Positions 1 to 13,354 of a stretch of DNA of 13,354 nucleotides are shown in pieces. Positions within the stretch are counted from its first letter, which is position 1. Each line of letters starts with the position of its first letter. Position numbers and translations under genes: made by a program. A model generated the notes under the pieces. It had not been told where the DNA came from. It saw nothing but the letters and a program-made list of their open reading frames with translations, and made no database searches. The DNA comes from Candidatus Abyssobacteria bacterium SURF_5 (lineage in GTDB: Bacteria > Abyssobacteria > SURF-5). The stretch spans positions 1 through 13,354 of the forward strand of contig QZKU01000058.1 of NCBI GenBank assembly GCA_003598085.1, in the 5' to 3' direction.

Positions 1-97
1 ATACCCTCTGCGACATTGCTCTATTCCTCTTTCACCATAAAAACCCTGTCTTTGTGCCCTTTCACTCACTTCCGAATGTCGGGTTGCGGAATCGCTG
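1..97. repeat. Left terminal inverted repeat (97 bp, perfect)
   Basis: Bases 1-97 are the exact reverse complement of 13257-13353. Identity stops sharply at base 98 (A here, where the other arm predicts G). The repeat lies inside the 3' part of the acetoacetate-decarboxylase-like frame and replaces the expected protein end. It contains only a tiny internal hairpin (CCGA-ATG-TCGG, 72-82) and no gene of its own. It may be the edge of an insertion sequence or MITE present in several copies, at which assembly stopped, or a chimeric fold-back end. I do not recognise the family. Confidence 0.95.
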
Positions 98-846
98 ACG
101 GGGTCCACCTCGGCAACCACCGCACCGCGTCTCATGATATTATTGCTGTGAGTGTAGATTGCGCCCAGCGTTTTCACCACTTCCACCTCGTCCCACGGAT
201 CGTATTCGGAATGATTCAGGATGATTTCGGCCTCGCCACCCTCAATCAGATATGGTCGAAACTCGACCTCCTCGCGAATCAGTCGCGGGGAATAGTCGAA
301 TGCACCGCCTTCGGGCGCCGGAAAATGCTTGAAATTGAACGCAACGACAACCCCGTCGCCATTTTGGCTGAGGATTTGTGAAAAAACGTCCTGTGCGCCT
401 TCCATATTGAACTTGCCCGACAGTTTCGCCCGGACATCGAGAAAACGGACACCGTGTCTCTCAACCCATCCTTCAACATCGCTGCCCTCGCGATTCAATT
501 CTATCTTCGCAATTTTCTTGGGGTACCCGTACACCTCCCGGCCGCCGGCCATTGCCATATCGTTTGTAACCGGCATCGAGAGGCAATAGGCGCCGGTCTC
601 GCCTTTAAACCTAGCTTGCAAAAATAAAGCGGCTTCGAGATAGGTTACTCCAAAATTCGTGCGCGGATAGTCCGCGATAAACCCGAATGCAAGGGGCCTC
701 TCCGCCGGCTCGAGCGGCGGCGGCAGCAGTCGCCTGACAATTTCGGGTTTCGTCTCCCAGACGACGGCCAGCATCTGCGCCTCATAAAACTCACCGGTTT
801 CCCTTTGCATTTGCGCTATTTCTTCGTATGTCTTCACGAAACCCAT
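1..846 (-). CDS. Acetoacetate decarboxylase family protein, 3' end truncated by window edge/terminal repeat
   Basis: The frame starts at ATG 846-844 and stays open for 282 codons to base 1. GGAGG lies 5 bases before the ATG. Residues 101-113 (GGREVYGYPKKIA) match the active-site segment of acetoacetate decarboxylase, in which the first of two adjacent lysines forms the Schiff base with the substrate and the second lowers its pKa. Here these would be K110 and K111. The family decarboxylates beta-keto acids in the cytoplasm or, in divergent members, performs aldol or dehydration chemistry, so the substrate is not predictable. Residues 1-250 look like a normal member of about 250-270 residues. 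From residue 251 on, the frame is encoded by the terminal repeat and reads as unrelated, charged sequence, so the true C-terminus is missing or disrupted. The gene is divergent from the PRC-barrel gene. Confidence 0.8.
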   Translation of the reverse strand, partial: MGFVKTYEEIAQMQRETGEFYEAQMLAVVWETKPEIVRRLLPPPLEPAERPLAFGFIADYPRTNFGVTYLEAALFLQARFKGETGAYCLSMPVTNDMAMAGGREVYGYPKKIAKIELNREGSDVEGWVERHGVRFLDVRAKLSGKFNMEGAQDVFSQILSQNGDGVVVAFNFKHFPAPEGGAFDYSPRLIREEVEFRPYLIEGGEAEIILNHSEYDPWDEVEVVKTLGAIYTHSNNIMRRGAVVAEVDPVSDSATRHSEVSERAQRQGFYGERGIEQCRRGY

Positions 847-1046
847 AGTATCCTCCGCAGAATAGCTCAATTCCCATGTTCGCTTTTCTCACTTTATCCG
901 AGATATTGGTTCTAAGCAAATTTTGGCAAAAAAAAGCAAAAATATAGAGCCGGACGCGCCAGACAATGACATAGTATTAATAGAGAAGAGAGTGTTGGGC
1001 GTACGAATAAAATGGTTCCAAAATAAGGTGAAAAGAGGAGAAAAAA

Positions 1047-1619
1047 ATGAAAGTATTGAGCTTATTCGTGGCAATGGCGTTTGCTTTCTCGTTCTTAGCG
1101 ATGCCGGCTTTTGCTGCCGGCGAAGGTGAAGTAACGAAGGACGGAACGCAGATGCAGGGGTTCTACAAGGGAAGTGATTTGCTGGATAAGAGCGTGATGA
1201 GCAGCGAAGGTGAAGTGCTCGGAGATCTGGACGATATCATCATTGGGCAGGATGGAACGCTGAAGTACGGTATCATCTCTTCCGGCGGGTTCCTCGGAAT
1301 GGGCGAAGAACAAGTCGCTGTTCCGCTCAAATCCATTCAGCTTGCTCCCGAGCAGGATGCTCTCATGGTCAACGTGACGCAGGACAGATTCGAGAATGCT
1401 CCCAGGTTTGACCAGGAAGGCTTTACCTCCGAAATGGAGCGCGAAGTAAGCGCATACTATGGCGCCGAGGAAATGGAGATGGAGCCCGAAGCAGAACGTG
1501 AATTGGCTCCCTTCGAGGAGACAGAACGGGAATTTGAAGGCATGAAGGAAGAGGGCCGCATGGACCACGAAGGCCGGATGGATCAGGAAGGCCTTTCAGG
1601 CGAGGAAAGCGCCTATTAA
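1047..1619 (+). CDS. Exported PRC-barrel domain protein with acidic C-terminal tail
   Basis: This encodes 190 residues. GAGGAG (1035-1040) lies 6 bases before the ATG. Residues 1-23 form a classical Sec signal peptide: Lys2, a hydrophobic core, and cleavage expected after AFA at about residue 23. Residues 36-112 read as a PRC-barrel (GSDLLDKSVMSSEGEVLGDL, then a D-G-T-L-K-Y-G-I strand, a glycine-rich turn and the VAVPLKSI strand). This beta-barrel fold is found in photosynthetic reaction-centre subunit H, in RimM and in many stress-related exported proteins. Residues 127-190 are rich in Glu and Met, with a near repeat GRMDHE/GRMDQE at 170-181, probably disordered. The product should be periplasmic or surface-exposed. 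The gene is monocistronic, with its own terminator immediately downstream. Its precise role is unknown. Confidence 0.8.
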   Translation: MKVLSLFVAMAFAFSFLAMPAFAAGEGEVTKDGTQMQGFYKGSDLLDKSVMSSEGEVLGDLDDIIIGQDGTLKYGIISSGGFLGMGEEQVAVPLKSIQLAPEQDALMVNVTQDRFENAPRFDQEGFTSEMEREVSAYYGAEEMEMEPEAERELAPFEETEREFEGMKEEGRMDHEGRMDQEGLSGEESAY

Positions 1620-1654
1620 TTCATACCCGATCATACATCATGCTGACGATTGGG

Positions 1655-1686
1655 CCGGCGCGCCATCCAGGCGCGCCGGTTTTTTT
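1655..1686 (+). terminator. Rho-independent terminator of the PRC-barrel gene
   Basis: A perfect 10 bp GC-only stem (CCGGCGCGCC 1655-1664 with GGCGCGCCGG 1670-1679) encloses the 5-base loop ATCCA and is followed by seven T residues (1680-1686). It lies 35 bases after the stop of the plus-strand gene. There is no matching A-tract on the left side, so it should act mainly on plus-strand transcripts, although the hairpin also sits just after the end of the convergent hydrolase gene. Confidence 0.93.
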
Positions 1687-1701
1687 GCCTCGACTCAGCC
1701 G

Positions 1702-3507
1702 CTATCGTTTCGGCGGCACAACCGGTATCTGCAGATATGAATCGTACTTTCCACCCGTGTGAATAGTATCTTTCGCATGCCGCGCCCGATACAGACCCAC
1801 CCGCGAGCCCTGCATTGTCATCGGACTGTCCGATGAGAGCGTCAGCACCAGGCGCGACCCCTTCGGGTACACCATGCTCGTCGGCCAGACCTCGACCTGC
1901 ATCTCCACCGGCTCGCCCGGCTCGAGCGGCAGCAGATTCTTGTGGCGGTGATAGGGGCGCGAGGCGGTCGTGAGTTCCGGGTCCAGTTCGCGGTGCTGAG
2001 CGGAAAGCCAGCCGACCGTCACAATCTCCCGCTCTCCATACCATTTGTGCAACAGCGGATGCAGCGTCGGATGCACGATCAGCATTACCGCGTGCACGTT
2101 CATGTCGTTGATGCTTGAAGAGACCCACAGATTGAGCTTGATCTCGCCCGTGATCTCGGTGTCCTCACGAAACGGATCGGAAACAAACACAGCCACATTA
2201 TCGTTTTCTGTGTAGCCGCCGGGCGCGTCATACGTGACACTGGTTTCGGTTTCGGGCAGCGTATCGGCAAAGCCGCCCGCCGAGTCGTCTTTTGCCGCCT
2301 TCAGATACAGCTTTCGATATTCCGTGCGCGCGATCGGCCAATCGTTTTCATAGCGCCAGTCGAAATCGAAACGGCCCGTCCCGGTCCGCACGGCAAGCTT
2401 TACCGGCGGCTCATTCATGATGCCGTTATCGATGCCCTTGAGCCAGTAATCGAAGAACCTCAATTGGGTCAGGAATCCCTCTTCCGAATAATACGCGTCC
2501 TGATGCGCGCCGGTGTGCACCCGAAGCTTCTTGTTCGCAGAGGCCGCTCGCTTGAATCCCTCGAGGTTCCCCCGCAGGTGGCCGGCTCCCATCCAGCCGT
2601 TCCAGTTGCCCGCGCTGTAAAGCGGGACCTGCACCTCGCTCCAATCCGGGCGTCGCTTCGCCCAGAACTCGTCATCCGTTCGATGGAACACGAATTCCCA
2701 GATGGCCGGCGGCGCATTCTCCTCGTAATTCTGCGCGTGCGGCCAGCCGCGAACGGAGTAGTCGCGGTAAAACTCGCCGACGTAGAACATCACCCACGGG
2801 AAGCAGAAGATGCCGCCGCGGTAAAAGCTGTCGCGGTACTGATCGGCCAGGCCCTCCCACGGAATGATCGCCTTCAATGACGGCGGCTGCTTCGCGGCGA
2901 CATACCATTGATTGATCGCGATGTAGGAGACGCCCGAAAGGCCGATGTTGCCGTTGCTCCACGGCTGGCGCGCCGCCCATTCGATGGCGTCGTAATAATC
3001 CTCGGCTTCCTGATCGTTCAAGCCGGAGGATTTGCCCGTCGATTGCCCGAAACCGCGCATATCGATGCGAACGAGCGCATACCCCCACGGAACCCAGCGC
3101 TCCGGGTTCGGCAGCTCCCACACCTGGTATTCTCCCGGCTCGCCCTCGTGACCCTCCGGAACTGGCCACGGCCGGTCCTTCATGTACGCCGTCATCGACA
3201 TGATCACCGGAAATCGGCCCTCGGCGTCCGGCCTGAAGATGTTCGCCTTCAAGCTCGTGCCGTCGCGCATCGGGATATCCACATTCATTTCCGCGATCAA
3301 CCCGTACTCCTGCTTCGGCCCGTAAGCGGAATGATACTGCTCGATCGCCTCGCGCGCCTCGTCATTCGCCTTCACGGCCTCGGGAACGCGCTTGTCGCCA
3401 AAATGGTCCTGCGGCCGCTTCACCTGCGGAGTCGCGCAGGAAAGAAAGCAAACCGAGGAGAACACGAATAGCAAAAGGAGAAGCCTGCGCATCAAACCGT
3501 ATGACAT
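1702..3507 (-). CDS. CocE/NonD (peptidase S15) family hydrolase, probable lipoprotein
   Basis: This encodes 601 residues from ATG 3507. GGAGG sits 6 bases upstream of this ATG and inside the frame of the ATG at 3522, so 3507 is preferred. Residues 7-24 are Arg-rich then strongly hydrophobic, ending FLSC with Cys24 followed by Ala: a plausible, slightly atypical lipobox. The alpha/beta-hydrolase core spans about 70-360, with DMRGFGQSTG (149-158), the nucleophile elbow GVSY (Ser194) and a candidate catalytic histidine in TGAH (His335). Residues 400-600 form the jelly-roll C-domain typical of CocE and X-Pro dipeptidyl peptidases. The usual acid motif (GWYD in CocE) reads NWNGW at 301-305, without Asp. 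The substrate may be an ester, amide or acylated peptide; it cannot be told. The gene stands alone and converges on the PRC-barrel gene. Confidence 0.88.
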   Translation of the reverse strand: MSYGLMRRLLLLLFVFSSVCFLSCATPQVKRPQDHFGDKRVPEAVKANDEAREAIEQYHSAYGPKQEYGLIAEMNVDIPMRDGTSLKANIFRPDAEGRFPVIMSMTAYMKDRPWPVPEGHEGEPGEYQVWELPNPERWVPWGYALVRIDMRGFGQSTGKSSGLNDQEAEDYYDAIEWAARQPWSNGNIGLSGVSYIAINQWYVAAKQPPSLKAIIPWEGLADQYRDSFYRGGIFCFPWVMFYVGEFYRDYSVRGWPHAQNYEENAPPAIWEFVFHRTDDEFWAKRRPDWSEVQVPLYSAGNWNGWMGAGHLRGNLEGFKRAASANKKLRVHTGAHQDAYYSEEGFLTQLRFFDYWLKGIDNGIMNEPPVKLAVRTGTGRFDFDWRYENDWPIARTEYRKLYLKAAKDDSAGGFADTLPETETSVTYDAPGGYTENDNVAVFVSDPFREDTEITGEIKLNLWVSSSINDMNVHAVMLIVHPTLHPLLHKWYGEREIVTVGWLSAQHRELDPELTTASRPYHRHKNLLPLEPGEPVEMQVEVWPTSMVYPKGSRLVLTLSSDSPMTMQGSRVGLYRARHAKDTIHTGGKYDSYLQIPVVPPKR

Positions 3508-3571
3508 CTTCCACCTCCACATCCGTTGAACATTCGCTACCGTAGTGTTTCAAAAATGGCTTCCCAAGGCG

Positions 3572-3700
3572 ATGGGGACTGACTCCATTTACGGAATTCA
3601 TGCCTTTTTGAATACGTAGAATGGTGTCTGTCCCCAGAGCAAAGCGGAGCGAAATCACGCGCCTCGCGTGATAGAACGGCGCCTGTCCCCGGAGCAAAAC
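3572..3700. repeat. REP-like cluster: GTCTGTCCCC-type repeats, two direct copies and one inverted copy
   Basis: Segments 3622-3645 and 3677-3700 are 24 bp direct repeats that differ at five positions; the shared core is CTGTCCCC followed by GAGCAAA. The reverse complement of 3572-3589 matches 3620-3637 with four mismatches, so the first two units can fold into a long hairpin. A perfect 6 bp stem, CACGCG-CCT-CGCGTG (3656-3670), lies between the direct copies. Similar GGGGACAGACACC-type units are scattered through many environmental bacterial genomes, often linked to REP-associated tyrosine transposases; that link is from memory and no transposase is present here. The cluster fills the spacer between the M24 gene and the CocE-like gene. 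Confidence 0.7.
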
Positions 3701-3719
3701 CGTGAAAAAGCGCTGTTCG

Positions 3720-4889
3720 CTATGTTTCGATCACCAGTTCTTCCAGCCGCTCGGGCGCCTGCGTCAGCTTCACGTTCCCCGTTTCCGTGATCAAAACCGA
3801 GTCGGAATGCCGGAAGCCGCCCAACCCCTCGATGTAGATGCCCGGCTCGATGCTGATCAGCATCCCCGGCTCGAGCTCGCGATCATATCCCAGCGCGAGA
3901 TACGGCGCCTCGTGACCGGTGATCCCCAGCCCGTGGCCGGTGCGATGGAGGATATGCTCGCCATAGCCGGCATCCACGATGACTTTCCTCACCTTCTCGT
4001 CGATCTCATTCATGTTTGCGCCCGGCTTCGCCAGCTCGTACGCCAACTCGCGGGCTGCCATCGAGACTTCAAACGGCCTCTTCGCCTTTTCCGGCGCGCG
4101 CCCGAGAAAAAACGCGCGCTCCACCTCGACTCCGTAGCCGTCGAATTGGCCGCCGACGCCGGACACGTGCGGCCCGCCCTCCTCCATCGCGAGAAACGGC
4201 GTCGGCACGAAATGAGGATCGTGCGACTTCGATGGAGGCAAAACGGCCGCCCCGACCTTCGTAACGTAATAATTGAAGTCGGGAATATCCGCCACCAGCT
4301 TCTCCATGAGGAACTTCTGGACCTCGCTGAATATCAGCAGTTCCAGCGCGCCCGGCCTTGCGATCTTCAGGAGAATCTCGTGGCCCTCATTGATCAATTG
4401 GCAGGCGTGAACCGTTCGGCCGATTTCATAGTCGGTCTTGATCAGCCGGGCCTCATCGATGATATCGGTGACGGCGAATGCGGCCGACGGCGTCTTCTCG
4501 GCGATGAAGAGCGGCAGAGTCGGCTCCACGCCGATACGACCTCCCTTCTTGAAGAGAGGCCGAAAGACATCGAACCACATCTGTCCCTTTGGAGCCGGGA
4601 ATTCATAATACGTCGCATATTCCAGCGGCGCACGGGCGCGCGCCCGAACATGCGTGCTTTCGAGCAGCGGGCACAACATCATCGGCGTCCCGTCCTGCGG
4701 GATCACGAGAATGAACGGCCGCTCGTGCACGTAATTCGCGAAGTTGGTGAGATAGTAAATGTTGACGGGATCGTGAGACACGTAGTAATCAAGGCCTTGC
4801 TCCGCCATCAGGGCGCGCACCTTGTCGAGGCGGGCGGCAAGCTCGGCTTCGCTCGGAGGGGTGGTTATCGGCTTCGGAATCTCGCTCAT
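3720..4889 (-). CDS. M24-fold (Xaa-Pro peptidase/creatinase-like) protein with altered metal site
   Basis: This encodes 389 residues from ATG 4889, chosen because AAGGAG lies 5 bases upstream; the frame extends to 4994 without a comparable site. Residues 15-150 form a creatinase-type N-domain (HDPVNIYYLTNF at 39-50). Residues 155-389 are the pita-bread domain, with DGYGVEVER (250-258), HRTGHGLGITGHE (315-327), SIEPGIY (346-352) and GGFRHSDSVLIT (357-368). M24 peptidases bind two metals through Asp, Asp, His, Glu, Glu. Aligning by motif, only His319 and Glu348 remain; the Asp positions are Gly244 and Glu255, and the last Glu is Ser362. I recall a similar GGFRHSD motif in other proteins annotated as Xaa-Pro peptidases, so this may be a stable subfamily. 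It could be a peptidase with a different site or a metal-free creatinase-like hydrolase. Confidence 0.85.
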   Translation of the reverse strand: MSEIPKPITTPPSEAELAARLDKVRALMAEQGLDYYVSHDPVNIYYLTNFANYVHERPFILVIPQDGTPMMLCPLLESTHVRARARAPLEYATYYEFPAPKGQMWFDVFRPLFKKGGRIGVEPTLPLFIAEKTPSAAFAVTDIIDEARLIKTDYEIGRTVHACQLINEGHEILLKIARPGALELLIFSEVQKFLMEKLVADIPDFNYYVTKVGAAVLPPSKSHDPHFVPTPFLAMEEGGPHVSGVGGQFDGYGVEVERAFFLGRAPEKAKRPFEVSMAARELAYELAKPGANMNEIDEKVRKVIVDAGYGEHILHRTGHGLGITGHEAPYLALGYDRELEPGMLISIEPGIYIEGLGGFRHSDSVLITETGNVKLTQAPERLEELVIET

Positions 4890-5075: not shown

Positions 5076-5190
5076 CATCATCGACCACACGAATTCGCAC
5101 GAATTAGACGAATTCTTGAACCCGCCGATACACGCCGATGAACTCTCCGTTCGTCATCCTGAGCACAGTCGAAGGATCTCTCTTCTGACC

Positions 5191-5218
5191 TTGAACCTTG
5201 AACTTTGGACCTTGAACT
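5191..5218. repeat. Second heptamer tandem array, four units
   Basis: Four exact 7-base units in the same orientation as the array at 5027: TTGAACC, TTGAACT, TTGGACC and TTGAACT. The two arrays are separated by about 115 bases containing other repeat types. Confidence 0.8.
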
Positions 5219-5347
5219 GATTCATCCACCACGTGGGCCTCGCGGCCACGGAGGAAAGACAAAATCGAACCACGAAGAAAGAGAGACAGAACCACGGACG
5301 CACACAGATTCACACGGATCATTGGAACCCAATAAATGCCCGTGTAG

Positions 5348-5377
5348 GGGCATCCCGCGTCTCGCGGGAACGTGCCC
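5348..5377. repeat. Imperfect hairpin repeat (GGGCA ... TGCCC)
   Basis: Outer arms GGGCA (5348-5352) and TGCCC (5373-5377) enclose an inner perfect stem CCCGCG/CGCGGG (5354-5359, 5363-5368) with loop TCT. There is no following T-tract, and no gene end lies nearby on either strand, so it is more likely an interspersed repeat than a terminator. Confidence 0.6.
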
Positions 5378-5409
5378 GTCGATTCATCCTGACCCGCCGA
5401 AGGTAAAAT

Positions 5410-5430
5410 TCCCCCTTTACGAAAGGGGGA
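5410..5430. repeat. Perfect 9 bp hairpin (TCCCCCTTT/AAAGGGGGA)
   Basis: The stem 5410-5418 pairs with 5422-5430 around the loop ACG. It is followed by two related G-rich units (CTAAGGGAGG and CTAAGGGGG, 5431-5450). Similar CCCCCTTT/AAAGGGGG units are scattered in many bacterial genomes. No gene ends nearby, so a terminator role is unlikely. Confidence 0.65.
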
Positions 5431-5526
5431 CTAAGGGAGGACTAAGGGGGATTTCCCTCGTCGTCATTCCTGCTCCGCCTGCGTTGGGGTCGCGACCCTC
5501 TTTCTTTCATCGCATGCCCCAAGAAT

Positions 5527-5569
5527 TTTTCATTTGGCCGCTCAACGTGTTATAATTTTGAAATATAAT
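5527..5569 (+). promoter_or_regulatory. Probable promoter region of the radical SAM-HAD operon
   Basis: Two perfect TATAAT hexamers occur at 5551-5556 and 5564-5569 in an abruptly AT-rich stretch, 50-70 bases before the radical SAM start. The best -35 match for the first is TTTTCA (5527-5532) with an 18-base spacer; the second has no good -35. The position and the two consensus -10 boxes support a promoter, but which one is used is unclear. Confidence 0.45.
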
Positions 5570-5620
5570 CGATGAAAAAAGGCTTTTCGACTACCTTTGG
5601 AAGTATGAGGAATTTCGATT

Positions 5621-6511
5621 ATGGTGTATGAACTTCCGCCGTTCCGGCCGCCGAGCGAGGCCTACAGCATGCTGCTGCGCGTTACCCGCGGATGCCCATG
5701 GAACCGCTGTACCTACTGCGGCATGTATAAGGGAATGAAATTCGAGACGCGGTCGGTCGAGGAAATGAAAGCCGATATCGACGCAGCCCTCGAATTCTAC
5801 GGCGACCGCGCGATGAACGTGTTCATCGGCGACGCCGACAGCCCGGTCATCAAGACGGTTGATTTCGTCGAGATTTTGCGCTATCTGCGCTCGAAATTCA
5901 CAAGGATACACCGGGTCACCAGCTACGGCCGCGCGAAAACAATCGCGCTGATGGCGCCCGAAAAGCTCAAGCGCCTGGCCGAAGCCGGCCTCGACCGCCT
6001 CCACCTCGGCCTCGAAACCGGCGACCCCAACCTGCTGCAGTACATCAAGAAGGGGGCGACGCCGGAACACATGATCGAGGCCGGCCGCAAGATAAAAGCC
6101 GCGGGCATCGAGCTCTCCGAATATCTCATGCTCGGCGTCGGCGGCTCGAAAGGATGGGAATCGCACGCCCGCGAAAGCGCGCGCGTCCTGAACGCGATCG
6201 TTCCCGATTTCATTCGCGTGCGCACAATGACGCTGATCCCCGGCACGCCGATGTTCGAGGCGTATGAGAAGGGCGAATACCTGCCGGCGAATGTGCTCGA
6301 GATGCTGATGGAGGAGCGCCTCCTGATCGAGTGCCTCGACGGCATCGGCTCCGAATTCCACAGCGACCACGTCTCCAACCTCGTCCCCGTCTTCGGAAAA
6401 TTCATGGGAGACAAGCCGCAGATGCTCGAGACGCTCGACCGCATCATCGAGCGCGTCGAGAAAAACAAGGATAAACTGACGAACGAACCGCGGATTGCAA
6501 CGGTAATGTAA
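5621..6511 (+). CDS. Radical SAM domain protein (CX4CX2C cluster motif)
   Basis: This encodes 296 residues. The start at 5621 has a modest GAGG (5607-5610) 10 bases upstream. Residues 22-40 carry the [4Fe-4S] cysteines C25, C30 and C33 in RGCPWNRCTYCGMYKG, a CX4CX2C spacing rather than the classical CX3CX2C. Residues 68-73 (FIGDAD) and 127-135 (LHLGLETGD) fit the SAM-binding strands of the partial TIM barrel in HemN/Elp3-like radical SAM proteins, and LIPGTPMFE (206-214) is also typical of that group. No cobalamin or SPASM domain is visible. The enzyme should make a 5'-deoxyadenosyl radical in the cytoplasm under low oxygen; the substrate is unknown. The HAD gene follows 2 bases after the stop, which implies cotranscription and probably a shared pathway. 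Confidence 0.9.
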   Translation: MVYELPPFRPPSEAYSMLLRVTRGCPWNRCTYCGMYKGMKFETRSVEEMKADIDAALEFYGDRAMNVFIGDADSPVIKTVDFVEILRYLRSKFTRIHRVTSYGRAKTIALMAPEKLKRLAEAGLDRLHLGLETGDPNLLQYIKKGATPEHMIEAGRKIKAAGIELSEYLMLGVGGSKGWESHARESARVLNAIVPDFIRVRTMTLIPGTPMFEAYEKGEYLPANVLEMLMEERLLIECLDGIGSEFHSDHVSNLVPVFGKFMGDKPQMLETLDRIIERVEKNKDKLTNEPRIATVM

Positions 6512-6513
6512 TT

Positions 6514-7221
6514 ATGACGGATAAACAAAAAAAGATTTCGACCGTTTTCTTCGATTTCGGCGACACGCTCGTCGAGGGCAGGCCCGCATATCTGCATCGG
6601 GTGGCCGATCTGCTCGCCGAGTTCGGGTTTCGGCATGAGGTTGCCGAGGTCGTGCACGCATTCAATAAGGCCGACTATCTCGTGTACGTGGATCATCAAT
6701 CGGGCTCGCTCTCGGTGGATGGCCAATACATGATGCGGTTTCTCCACCATTTCGGGGAGTGTCTCGGCGTCAAGATCGACTGGAAGACGCTTCTGCCGCA
6801 GATTCTGCGCAAGTTCGACGACCAGCCGTACGAGCGCGCGCTTGCCGATGGCGCGATCGAAACGCTCGGCGCGCTCCGGGACAAAGGATACCGCCTCGGC
6901 GTCATCTCGAACAATGACGGCAGTTGTCGCACGAAATGCGAGGCGCTCGGGATCGCCGACTTCTTCAAGGTGATCGTCGATTCCTCAATCGAGGGCGTCC
7001 GCAAACCGGCGCCGAAAATCTTTGAGATCGCGCTCGAGCGGATGAAGATTTCCCCTCGCGAGGCGATGCACGTGGGCGACATGTATGGAAGCGACGTGCT
7101 CGGCGCCCGCGACGTGGAGATACAGCCTGTCTGGTACAACCAGAACAAGGTGGATGCCTTCAGTCCGTACCGGCCGGCGCACACTGTAGAACAGCTTGCG
7201 CAGATACTTGATTTCGTGTAA
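6514..7221 (+). CDS. HAD superfamily hydrolase (HAD-IA like)
   Basis: This encodes 235 residues. The ATG lies 2 bases after the radical SAM stop with no strong ribosome site of its own, suggesting translational coupling. All four HAD motifs are visible: motif I DFGDT with nucleophile Asp14 (residues 14-18), motif II ISNND with Ser132, motif III lysine Lys164 in VRKPAPKIFE, and motif IV GDMYGSD with Asp189 and Asp194. Residues 20-110 form the helical C1 cap. The usual general acid two residues after the nucleophile is Gly16, with Asp17 next to it, so it departs from DxDxT and may not be an ordinary phosphatase. It probably acts on a small phosphorylated metabolite, possibly made or consumed by the radical SAM partner; that is inference. 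Confidence 0.88.
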   Translation: MTDKQKKISTVFFDFGDTLVEGRPAYLHRVADLLAEFGFRHEVAEVVHAFNKADYLVYVDHQSGSLSVDGQYMMRFLHHFGECLGVKIDWKTLLPQILRKFDDQPYERALADGAIETLGALRDKGYRLGVISNNDGSCRTKCEALGIADFFKVIVDSSIEGVRKPAPKIFEIALERMKISPREAMHVGDMYGSDVLGARDVEIQPVWYNQNKVDAFSPYRPAHTVEQLAQILDFV

Positions 7222-7337
7222 CCGGCGGCCCCGGCGAGGTCGCTCGTAAATGAGGGAGCCTGCTTAACGTGTCCCCGGAATTCCAAAGCCGGCAATCCTG
7301 AAGTCAAATTCCCTTCCGCTCTTGGAGGTACATTTCC

Positions 7338-11964: not shown

Positions 11965-13155
11965 TCAATCACCCCTCGCGTGCAGACCATATAAATGTCG
12001 TGCAGTGAGACCAGTATATCTCTCGAAGTCAAAATCCTGATCCTTGGCTTTGGCTTTCGCCAGCTCAAAAATTCTTTCTGATTCGCTATGAGGATACGGT
12101 TCCACGTAAACAACCTTCTTTATCCCTACCTCAAGAATCATTTTTGCGCACATCAGACAAGGGAAGGTCGTACAATAGAGGGTCGTCCCCTTTAAAGATA
12201 TTCCCTTTCTTATTGCCCTCAATATTGCTCGTTCCTCAGCGTGCACAGCATAACACAAGTCCAAGTGCTTTTCAAGAAGGCTTCTCTTTCTTCTATTATC
12301 ATATCCGCAACTGCATTCTGCTAACGTGATCTGGATTTCCTTGTCCCTGCATCCCTCGCACTTCAGCAATTCTTTCCGCCTGCAAACTTTACAATCTGAT
12401 ATTCCTTCGGGCACTCCATTCCATCCCGTCGAGATCACATTCAATCCATCTGCTATGACCGCGCCAACTCTCCTTCCTTGGCACTTTGAAAGAAGCCTCT
12501 GCATAAAAGCATGCGACATGAGAACGGCCTTCTCCACTTTATCACTAGCTTCTCCTGATACAATCTTGAAGAAATCTCCCAAGTCATCGTAAAGCTTGTG
12601 AGGTTTCGCTTTACCCTTGTCTTTGTCATTGTTAATGAAATAGTCTGCCATATTCACACAATCAGTTACTTGCTGACCGTACTCAGGTTGTAAATCTCCG
12701 CTATCTCTCATGTCGGCGTCCAGGAACTCGTCCCGTTCCTGCTGATTTTTGACATTTGTCCACCTCATCCTGTCTTCTTCAGACGCGTAAAGAGCCAAAA
12801 CATAGCAATGGGGGATAAGGTTCCGAAGAAATCTTACTTCCTCTGGATTTCGGACTGTCTCTATGACAACCCGCCTCACTGCTTTGCGAACTCGACCAGA
12901 TCCGAGAAACTTGTCAAGAGCAAGCTGCATCAAAATTTGGCTGCCCTTCGTCTTTCTGATTTTATCTCCGTAATTTTGCATTTCGCTTCTAGAAAGACCC
13001 TTCGGGAGGTTGTAAAAATCTCTGAGGATACTGGACAGTGAAATATGCTTGAATCTATATTCCTTCTTGAGATATTCGGCGCTGGTGGTGCATCCGCTTC
13101 CAAATGCGCCCGCTATCGCAACGTAGAGCATGTTCGACGATTTAGCTCTCGTCAT
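11965..13155 (-). CDS. P-loop/deoxycytidylate deaminase fusion, likely antiphage dCTP/dCMP deaminase (AvcD-like)
   Basis: This encodes 396 residues from ATG 13155, with GGAGG 6 bases upstream. Residues 9-180 form a P-loop kinase-like domain (AIAGAFGSGCTT at 13-24, VIETVRNPEEV at 97-107). The usual Walker lysine position is Cys22, so kinase activity is doubtful. Residues about 205-396 form a zinc-dependent cytidine-deaminase-fold domain: GWNGVPEG (244-251), HAE with His305 and Glu307, and PCLMC with Cys333 and Cys336. A Cys-rich insert (Cys255, 258, 266, 269, 281, 283) may hold another metal. This architecture is that of the antiphage deaminases (AvcD, DefenseFinder dCTPdeaminase), which drain deoxycytidine nucleotides during infection. 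The gene is much AT-richer than its neighbours and sits by the right terminal repeat, suggesting transfer. A housekeeping dCMP deaminase is the alternative. Confidence 0.82.
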   Translation of the reverse strand: MTRAKSSNMLYVAIAGAFGSGCTTSAEYLKKEYRFKHISLSSILRDFYNLPKGLSRSEMQNYGDKIRKTKGSQILMQLALDKFLGSGRVRKAVRRVVIETVRNPEEVRFLRNLIPHCYVLALYASEEDRMRWTNVKNQQERDEFLDADMRDSGDLQPEYGQQVTDCVNMADYFINNDKDKGKAKPHKLYDDLGDFFKIVSGEASDKVEKAVLMSHAFMQRLLSKCQGRRVGAVIADGLNVISTGWNGVPEGISDCKVCRRKELLKCEGCRDKEIQITLAECSCGYDNRRKRSLLEKHLDLCYAVHAEERAILRAIRKGISLKGTTLYCTTFPCLMCAKMILEVGIKKVVYVEPYPHSESERIFELAKAKAKDQDFDFERYTGLTARHLYGLHARGD

Positions 13156-13209
13156 CCGCAGCCTCCAAGCACTTTCATTCCTGTTTGATTATGAATAGAA
13201 CTGATTGCT

Positions 13210-13238
13210 AGTGTAGCATATTTCTATGTTCTCATCAA
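13210..13238 (-). promoter_or_regulatory. Promoter-like site for the deaminase gene
   Basis: On the minus strand, TTGATG (13238-13233) and TACACT (13215-13210) are 17 bases apart, each matching four of six consensus positions. The predicted leader before ATG 13155 is about 47 bases. The site lies wholly between the gene and the terminal repeat, so the gene need not depend on sequence inside the repeat. Confidence 0.4.
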
Positions 13239-13256
13239 ATCTGGAAGAGAACAGCC

Positions 13257-13353
13257 CAGCGATTCCGCAACCCGACATTCGGAAGTGAGTGAAAGGGCAC
13301 AAAGACAGGGTTTTTATGGTGAAAGAGGAATAGAGCAATGTCGCAGAGGGTAT
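13257..13353. repeat. Right terminal inverted repeat (97 bp, perfect)
   Basis: Exact reverse complement of bases 1-97; one further base (13354) lies outside. The inner boundary is CAGCGATTCCGCAACCCG, and the arm begins 102 bases upstream of the deaminase start. No gene is contained in it. Both arms are entered from the window interior in the same sense, so they are two inverted copies of one sequence. Confidence 0.95.
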
Positions 13354-13354
13354 T

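Follow-up and report, generated by a model that had tools for sequence, protein, structure and literature searches.

Canonical AvcD proteins deaminate both dCTP and dCMP upon phage infection and thereby limit phage DNA synthesis (PMC10511110, PMC12409362), and an AvcID homologue is reported from ETEC (PMC10511110). The deaminase WP_000951932.1 of ETEC H10407 p58 served here as the anchor for the canonical group. The window analysed, the whole 13,354-nt contig from Candidatus Abyssobacteria bacterium SURF_5, encodes on its minus strand (11965..13155) a 396-aa protein with P-loop (adenylate-kinase-like) and dCMP/dCTP-type deaminase domains, recognized by Pfam, NF041025 and PADLOC. A ribosome-binding GGAGG lies at 13162-13166, 6 nt 5′ of the ATG. 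The preliminary description of a kinase-like domain fused to a cytidine deaminase with intact HAE and PCxxC motifs was borne out by the open frame, by Pfam (PF00383 dCMP_cyt_deam_1, 6.8e-21; AAA_17, 4.1e-6) and by alignment. Profile comparison also favored an antiphage deaminase over a ComE-type enzyme: NF041025, the NCBIfam model for anti-phage dCTP deaminase, aligned over model positions 3-425 of 437 (E 5.2e-64) with 216.7 bits, below its curated cut-off of 400, versus 60 bits for the ComEB profile, and the PADLOC dCTPase model matched at 1e-84.

An AlphaFold model computed from seven input sequences was of moderate quality (mean pLDDT 64), with values of about 70-87 for most of residues 10-160 and lower values at 81-90, 151-160 and 171-200. 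Within it the P-loop domain (residues 9-200; 12556..13131, minus strand) precedes the deaminase domain (residues 204-390; 11986..12546, minus strand; PF00383). The nearest solved fold for the former is the adenylate-kinase-related 3lw7 (VIA Z 20.7, rmsd 2.4 over 167 residues), and residues 204-380 match the cyanophage dCMP deaminase 4p9e (VIA Z 19.3, rmsd 2.0 over 124 residues). HAE at residues 305-307 (12235..12243, minus strand), comprising the first zinc ligand and the catalytic Glu, is invariant across all aligned groups, PCLMC at residues 332-336 (12148..12162, minus strand) supplies the zinc ligands Cys333 and Cys336, and the substrate-site Asn246 is intact. The C-terminal F..[FY].G motif is present at residues 375-389; its conserved glycine, G382, occurs in all canonical rows and all sequenced-through rows of the Cys branch introduced below, and is absent in compact fusions. 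A structural metal (M2) site exists in some dCMP deaminases (PMC12697855), and the Cys-rich loop at residues 255-283 (12307..12393, minus strand), reading CxxC-x7-CxxC and then CxC in the alignment, is probably an enlarged version of it. Seven cysteines lie between residues 255 and 301; C255 and C283 are common to this protein and the Cys branch, and C258, C266 and C269 occur in this protein only. The pLDDT of the loop was very low (27-33), and the AlphaFold model gives the metal-site reading no support.

The Walker A lysine is required for phosphoryl transfer in P-loop kinases. The P-loop of the 396-aa protein, GAFGSGCTT (residues 16-24; 13084..13110, minus strand), has Cys22 in the lysine column of the alignment. 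In an alignment of 35 P-loop-deaminase fusions, taken from genomes, plasmids, viral contigs and phage records, this column held Lys in all ten compact fusions, Cys in 9/9 members of a second branch (the Cys branch), and L, I, G, V, M or R in the 15 canonical antiphage deaminases, none of which has Lys; the ETEC H10407 homologue reads GFAGCGMKT. Sampling of about 790 additional genomes yielded a further ten Cys-branch proteins, each with Cys (19/19 overall, pattern GxxG[SAV]GC), and six more canonical proteins, all lacking GK[ST], one of which has a Lys in the column within a poorly aligned SPIGSLKEK. The substitution noted earlier therefore stands, but not as a contrast with AvcD, since all 15 canonical members of the alignment also lack the lysine and Cys is universal in the second branch. 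Judged from these alignments, lysine loss is the rule of the antiphage deaminase family and Cys marks one branch of it. As a broken kinase site is normal for the family, the 396-aa protein is no strange exception but a divergent relative of unusually short length. Because the lysine is lost, and given what is generally known of P-loop kinases, its P-loop domain probably regulates by binding a nucleotide rather than acting as a kinase. One residue (Lys, Cys or neither) thus sorts three kinds of P-loop-deaminase fusion in agreement with genomic context, a simple rule for annotation and experiments. Among canonical members, L110, L111 and L057 are extended at the N-terminus by roughly 80-100 aa (in L057, for example, MRFDGSFEELKKKLAPISSAGEWVEI), perhaps an added domain, and one genome, G400, encodes three of these deaminases (L080, L083 and L084), of which two are canonical and the third belongs to the Cys branch.

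To our knowledge there is no experimental work on the 396-aa protein or on the Cys branch. NCBI names the Geminocystis and Pantoea members of that branch anti-phage dCTP deaminase, and the members L065, L067 and L068 also score below the NF041025 cut-off. The neighbours of Cys-branch genes suggest a role in defence: in L065 the deaminase adjoins Avs4 (E 0), in L067 an AlwI-type restriction endonuclease and two methylases, in L066 and L068 nucleases of the Mrr/PDC-S02 type, and in L069 a DUF1016 nuclease along with an HsdM fragment. In L065 the Avs4 is full-length and the deaminase follows two genes later (1-4605 and 5188-7293). On the Geminocystis plasmid pGM01 (L075; 615-1934 and 2254-4137) the Cys-branch deaminase adjoins a dGTP triphosphohydrolase, possibly two nucleotide-depleting enzymes together; this deaminase reads PWELC and so lacks the first zinc cysteine of PCxxC.

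The reading we consider probable is that the 396-aa protein is a horizontally acquired, compact antiphage deaminase of the AvcD/DCD kind that would deplete deoxycytidine nucleotides on phage infection. As its catalytic residues and type of P-loop match those of AvcD, it most likely works in the same way. Upon phage takeover the zinc domain would deaminate deoxycytidine nucleotides, dCTP and/or dCMP, to dUTP/dUMP, and their loss would starve phage DNA synthesis. The P-loop domain, without the lysine as in nearly every antiphage-side relative, most likely binds a nucleotide and would thereby hold the deaminase off or build an oligomer. What we infer here is the substrate, a sensing function for the P-loop domain, and phage defence itself.

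Placement in trees was consistent with this kinship. Full-length trees, with P-loop columns taken out of the larger alignment, split off the canonical, Cys and compact groups at 100/99 or better each and set the 396-aa protein between the compact group and the canonical plus Cys groups; the canonical clade containing the ETEC homologue excluded it at 100/100. In a rooted tree of the deaminase domain only, with 13 standalone bacterial deaminases as outgroup, the 396-aa protein, the Cys branch and the canonical group were separated from ComEB and the compact fusions at 100/98.9, and grouping with the compact fusions was rejected (AU p 0.0145). A second rooted tree, which included seven phage dCMP deaminases and omitted the C-terminal motif, placed the 396-aa protein with the two antiphage branches at 100/98.7, and the compact grouping was again rejected (AU p 0.0013). 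Kinship with antiphage deaminases, as first proposed, accordingly has the backing of NF041025 and PADLOC, the rooted deaminase-domain trees and the common C-terminal motif. A place among housekeeping or phage-encoded dCMP deaminases, named beforehand as the contrary outcome, was not seen for the housekeeping enzymes; grouping with the phage clade was 9 log units less likely but not rejected (AU p 0.28). The best trees leave the protein outside the Cys branch, and neither joining to that branch (AU p 0.45, 0.39 and 0.48) nor joining to the canonical group (AU p 0.39-0.49) was rejected. GSGCTT, Trp245, Cys255 and Cys283 may tilt it towards the Cys branch.

A bolder version, which we hold to be unlikely, is that the 396-aa protein would represent, for the first time, a third lineage of antiphage deaminases that split off before the canonical and Cys branches diverged. 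It would then be a minimal defence protein without an RNA partner, with a kinase domain that lost its lysine as phage sensor. If true, it would show a housekeeping kinase-deaminase fusion turning into an immune effector.

The compact fusions, for which we know of no established name, bear on a different reading, that the 396-aa protein is a metabolic dCMP deaminase producing dUMP for dTTP synthesis, akin to these fusions and with kinase activity merely lost. One of them, K_L032, is its nearest row by plain identity (34-42%), and they adjoin ordinary chromosomal genes (dnaA, dus, leuC/D and def, read by eye). Yet the rooted trees keep the 396-aa protein out of the compact clade at the AU values given above, the compact fusions uniformly retain Lys and lack the C-terminal motif, the gene has a foreign composition, and two relatives of the same family are without the fusion gene. 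The host moreover possesses a standalone dCMP deaminase on contig 43, directly after genes read by eye as Sua5, rpiB and glyA, and the housekeeping role is therefore already filled. We regard this metabolic reading as fairly improbable. The trees, the context and the separate host enzyme led us to reject a housekeeping role. Compact fusions with an intact Walker A motif occur in diverse genomes (L032, L036, L033, L037, L029, L034 and others) and are the only deaminase matched in G049, G058 and G074; such proteins may take the place of ComEB and look like the form from which the antiphage fusions descended.

The GC content of the 396-aa gene, 45.3% overall with a GC3 of 47.9% against 61-83% in the ten other genes of the contig, marks it as acquired horizontally. 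Those neighbours are ordinary (PRC-barrel, S15 and M24 peptidases, radical SAM, HAD, ExbB/ExbD, 3-beta-HSD-like and alpha/beta hydrolase), and no defence gene was found among the ten, but only 199 nt of contig remain before the start codon. The terminal repeat described earlier is real: 97 nt at 100% identity, inverted, at 1-97 and 13257-13353. The same 94-98 nt recur at 14 contig ends of the SURF_5 genome with a sharp common edge (CAGCGATTCCGC) and unrelated flanks, so the repeat marks one end of a multicopy element that broke the assembly and is no replicon end. Its start occupies 13257..13354 (98 nt, cut by the contig end; no strand assigned), and a second, inverted copy of the edge lies at 1..97 at the other contig end. 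The element is perhaps an insertion sequence with a start codon close to its cut end. It was not found in the two family relatives. No convincing target-site duplications appeared in the 14 flanks; none would be expected if every one of these contig ends carries the same end of the element.

The proximity of the gene to this element edge (101 nt), the Cys-branch relative L063 on a viral contig and the unrejected grouping with phage dCMP deaminases agree with a gene of a mobile element or phage that would supply dU nucleotides to that element, with no part in defence. We judge this quite improbable: the phage dCMP deaminases compared are standalone proteins of 150-198 aa without a P-loop domain, no phage gene was seen on the 13,354-nt contig, and the favored topology unites the protein with the antiphage branches. 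A decayed or inactive copy is very improbable, for despite a long branch (1.3-1.5), the shortest length in the antiphage-side set and the absence of close relatives from every collection searched, the frame is open, with the ribosome-binding site, the zinc and catalytic residues and Asn246 intact. Single-protein scans of genome and viral contigs returned no relative; relatives came from alignment-based scans, whose patterns may miss proteins like the 396-aa one. The long branch, these pattern-limited searches, a possible chimeric assembly join and mechanically called ORFs in the relatives are possible sources of error, and some gene names without HMM support were assigned by eye.

Returning to the antiphage deaminase reading, control by an upstream AvcI-type RNA appears unlikely. 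AvcI needs a minimum of about 171 nt (PMC10511110), and the unique DNA upstream of the gene measures 101 nt (13156..13256, minus strand) including the GGAGG. The earlier suggestion that no room exists for AvcI is thus plausible, but this flank is cut, as the contig ends at the repeat. RNA folding of 13156-13354 revealed no unusual structure (z -0.47), no Rfam match was obtained in the upstream DNA, and no site in 13156-13256 passed a consensus scan for a sigma-70 promoter. In six Cys-branch loci (L065, L066, L068, L103, L113 and L115) only 28-78 nt separate the start codon from the end of a preceding gene on the same strand, and an AvcI-type RNA of about 171 nt does not fit into such gaps. The 101 nt before the 396-aa gene agree with this pattern, although a flank that is cut proves nothing. 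The deep-branching 396-aa protein is a small system for asking what a lysine-less P-loop domain does, and also lets one ask how antiphage deaminases stay off without AvcI.

Compared with the known systems, ComEB and the T4-type dCMP deaminases share the deaminase fold and zinc motifs with the 396-aa protein, but they lack a P-loop domain and form a separate clade. The compact fusions (GKNGSGKG, about 330-350 aa) have a similar length, the same domain order and the structural cysteines; they differ in retaining Lys, in lacking the C-terminal motif, in grouping with ComEB and in their ordinary chromosomal neighbours. With the Cys branch the protein has in common Cys in the Lys column, Trp245, Cys255, Cys283 and HAEE, whereas Cys-branch proteins are 567-752 aa long (427 aa in one contig-cut ORF) and have roughly 200-330 additional residues following the P-loop, an insert that the 396-aa protein lacks. 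It is also shorter than AvcD, as the preliminary description had stated, canonical members ranging from about 494 to 658 aa and the typical plasmid AvcD/DCD from 499 to 551 aa. Identity to AvcD/DCD is about 25-30%; the 396-aa protein scores below the NF041025 cut-off with no sign of AvcI, and it retains the Cys ligands of the structural metal site that canonical AvcD/DCD proteins have lost. What the two share is the order of P-loop and deaminase domains, the HAE and PCxxC motifs, a P-loop without the Walker A lysine, the C-terminal F..[FY].G motif and a D..YGQ-type motif in the P-loop domain.
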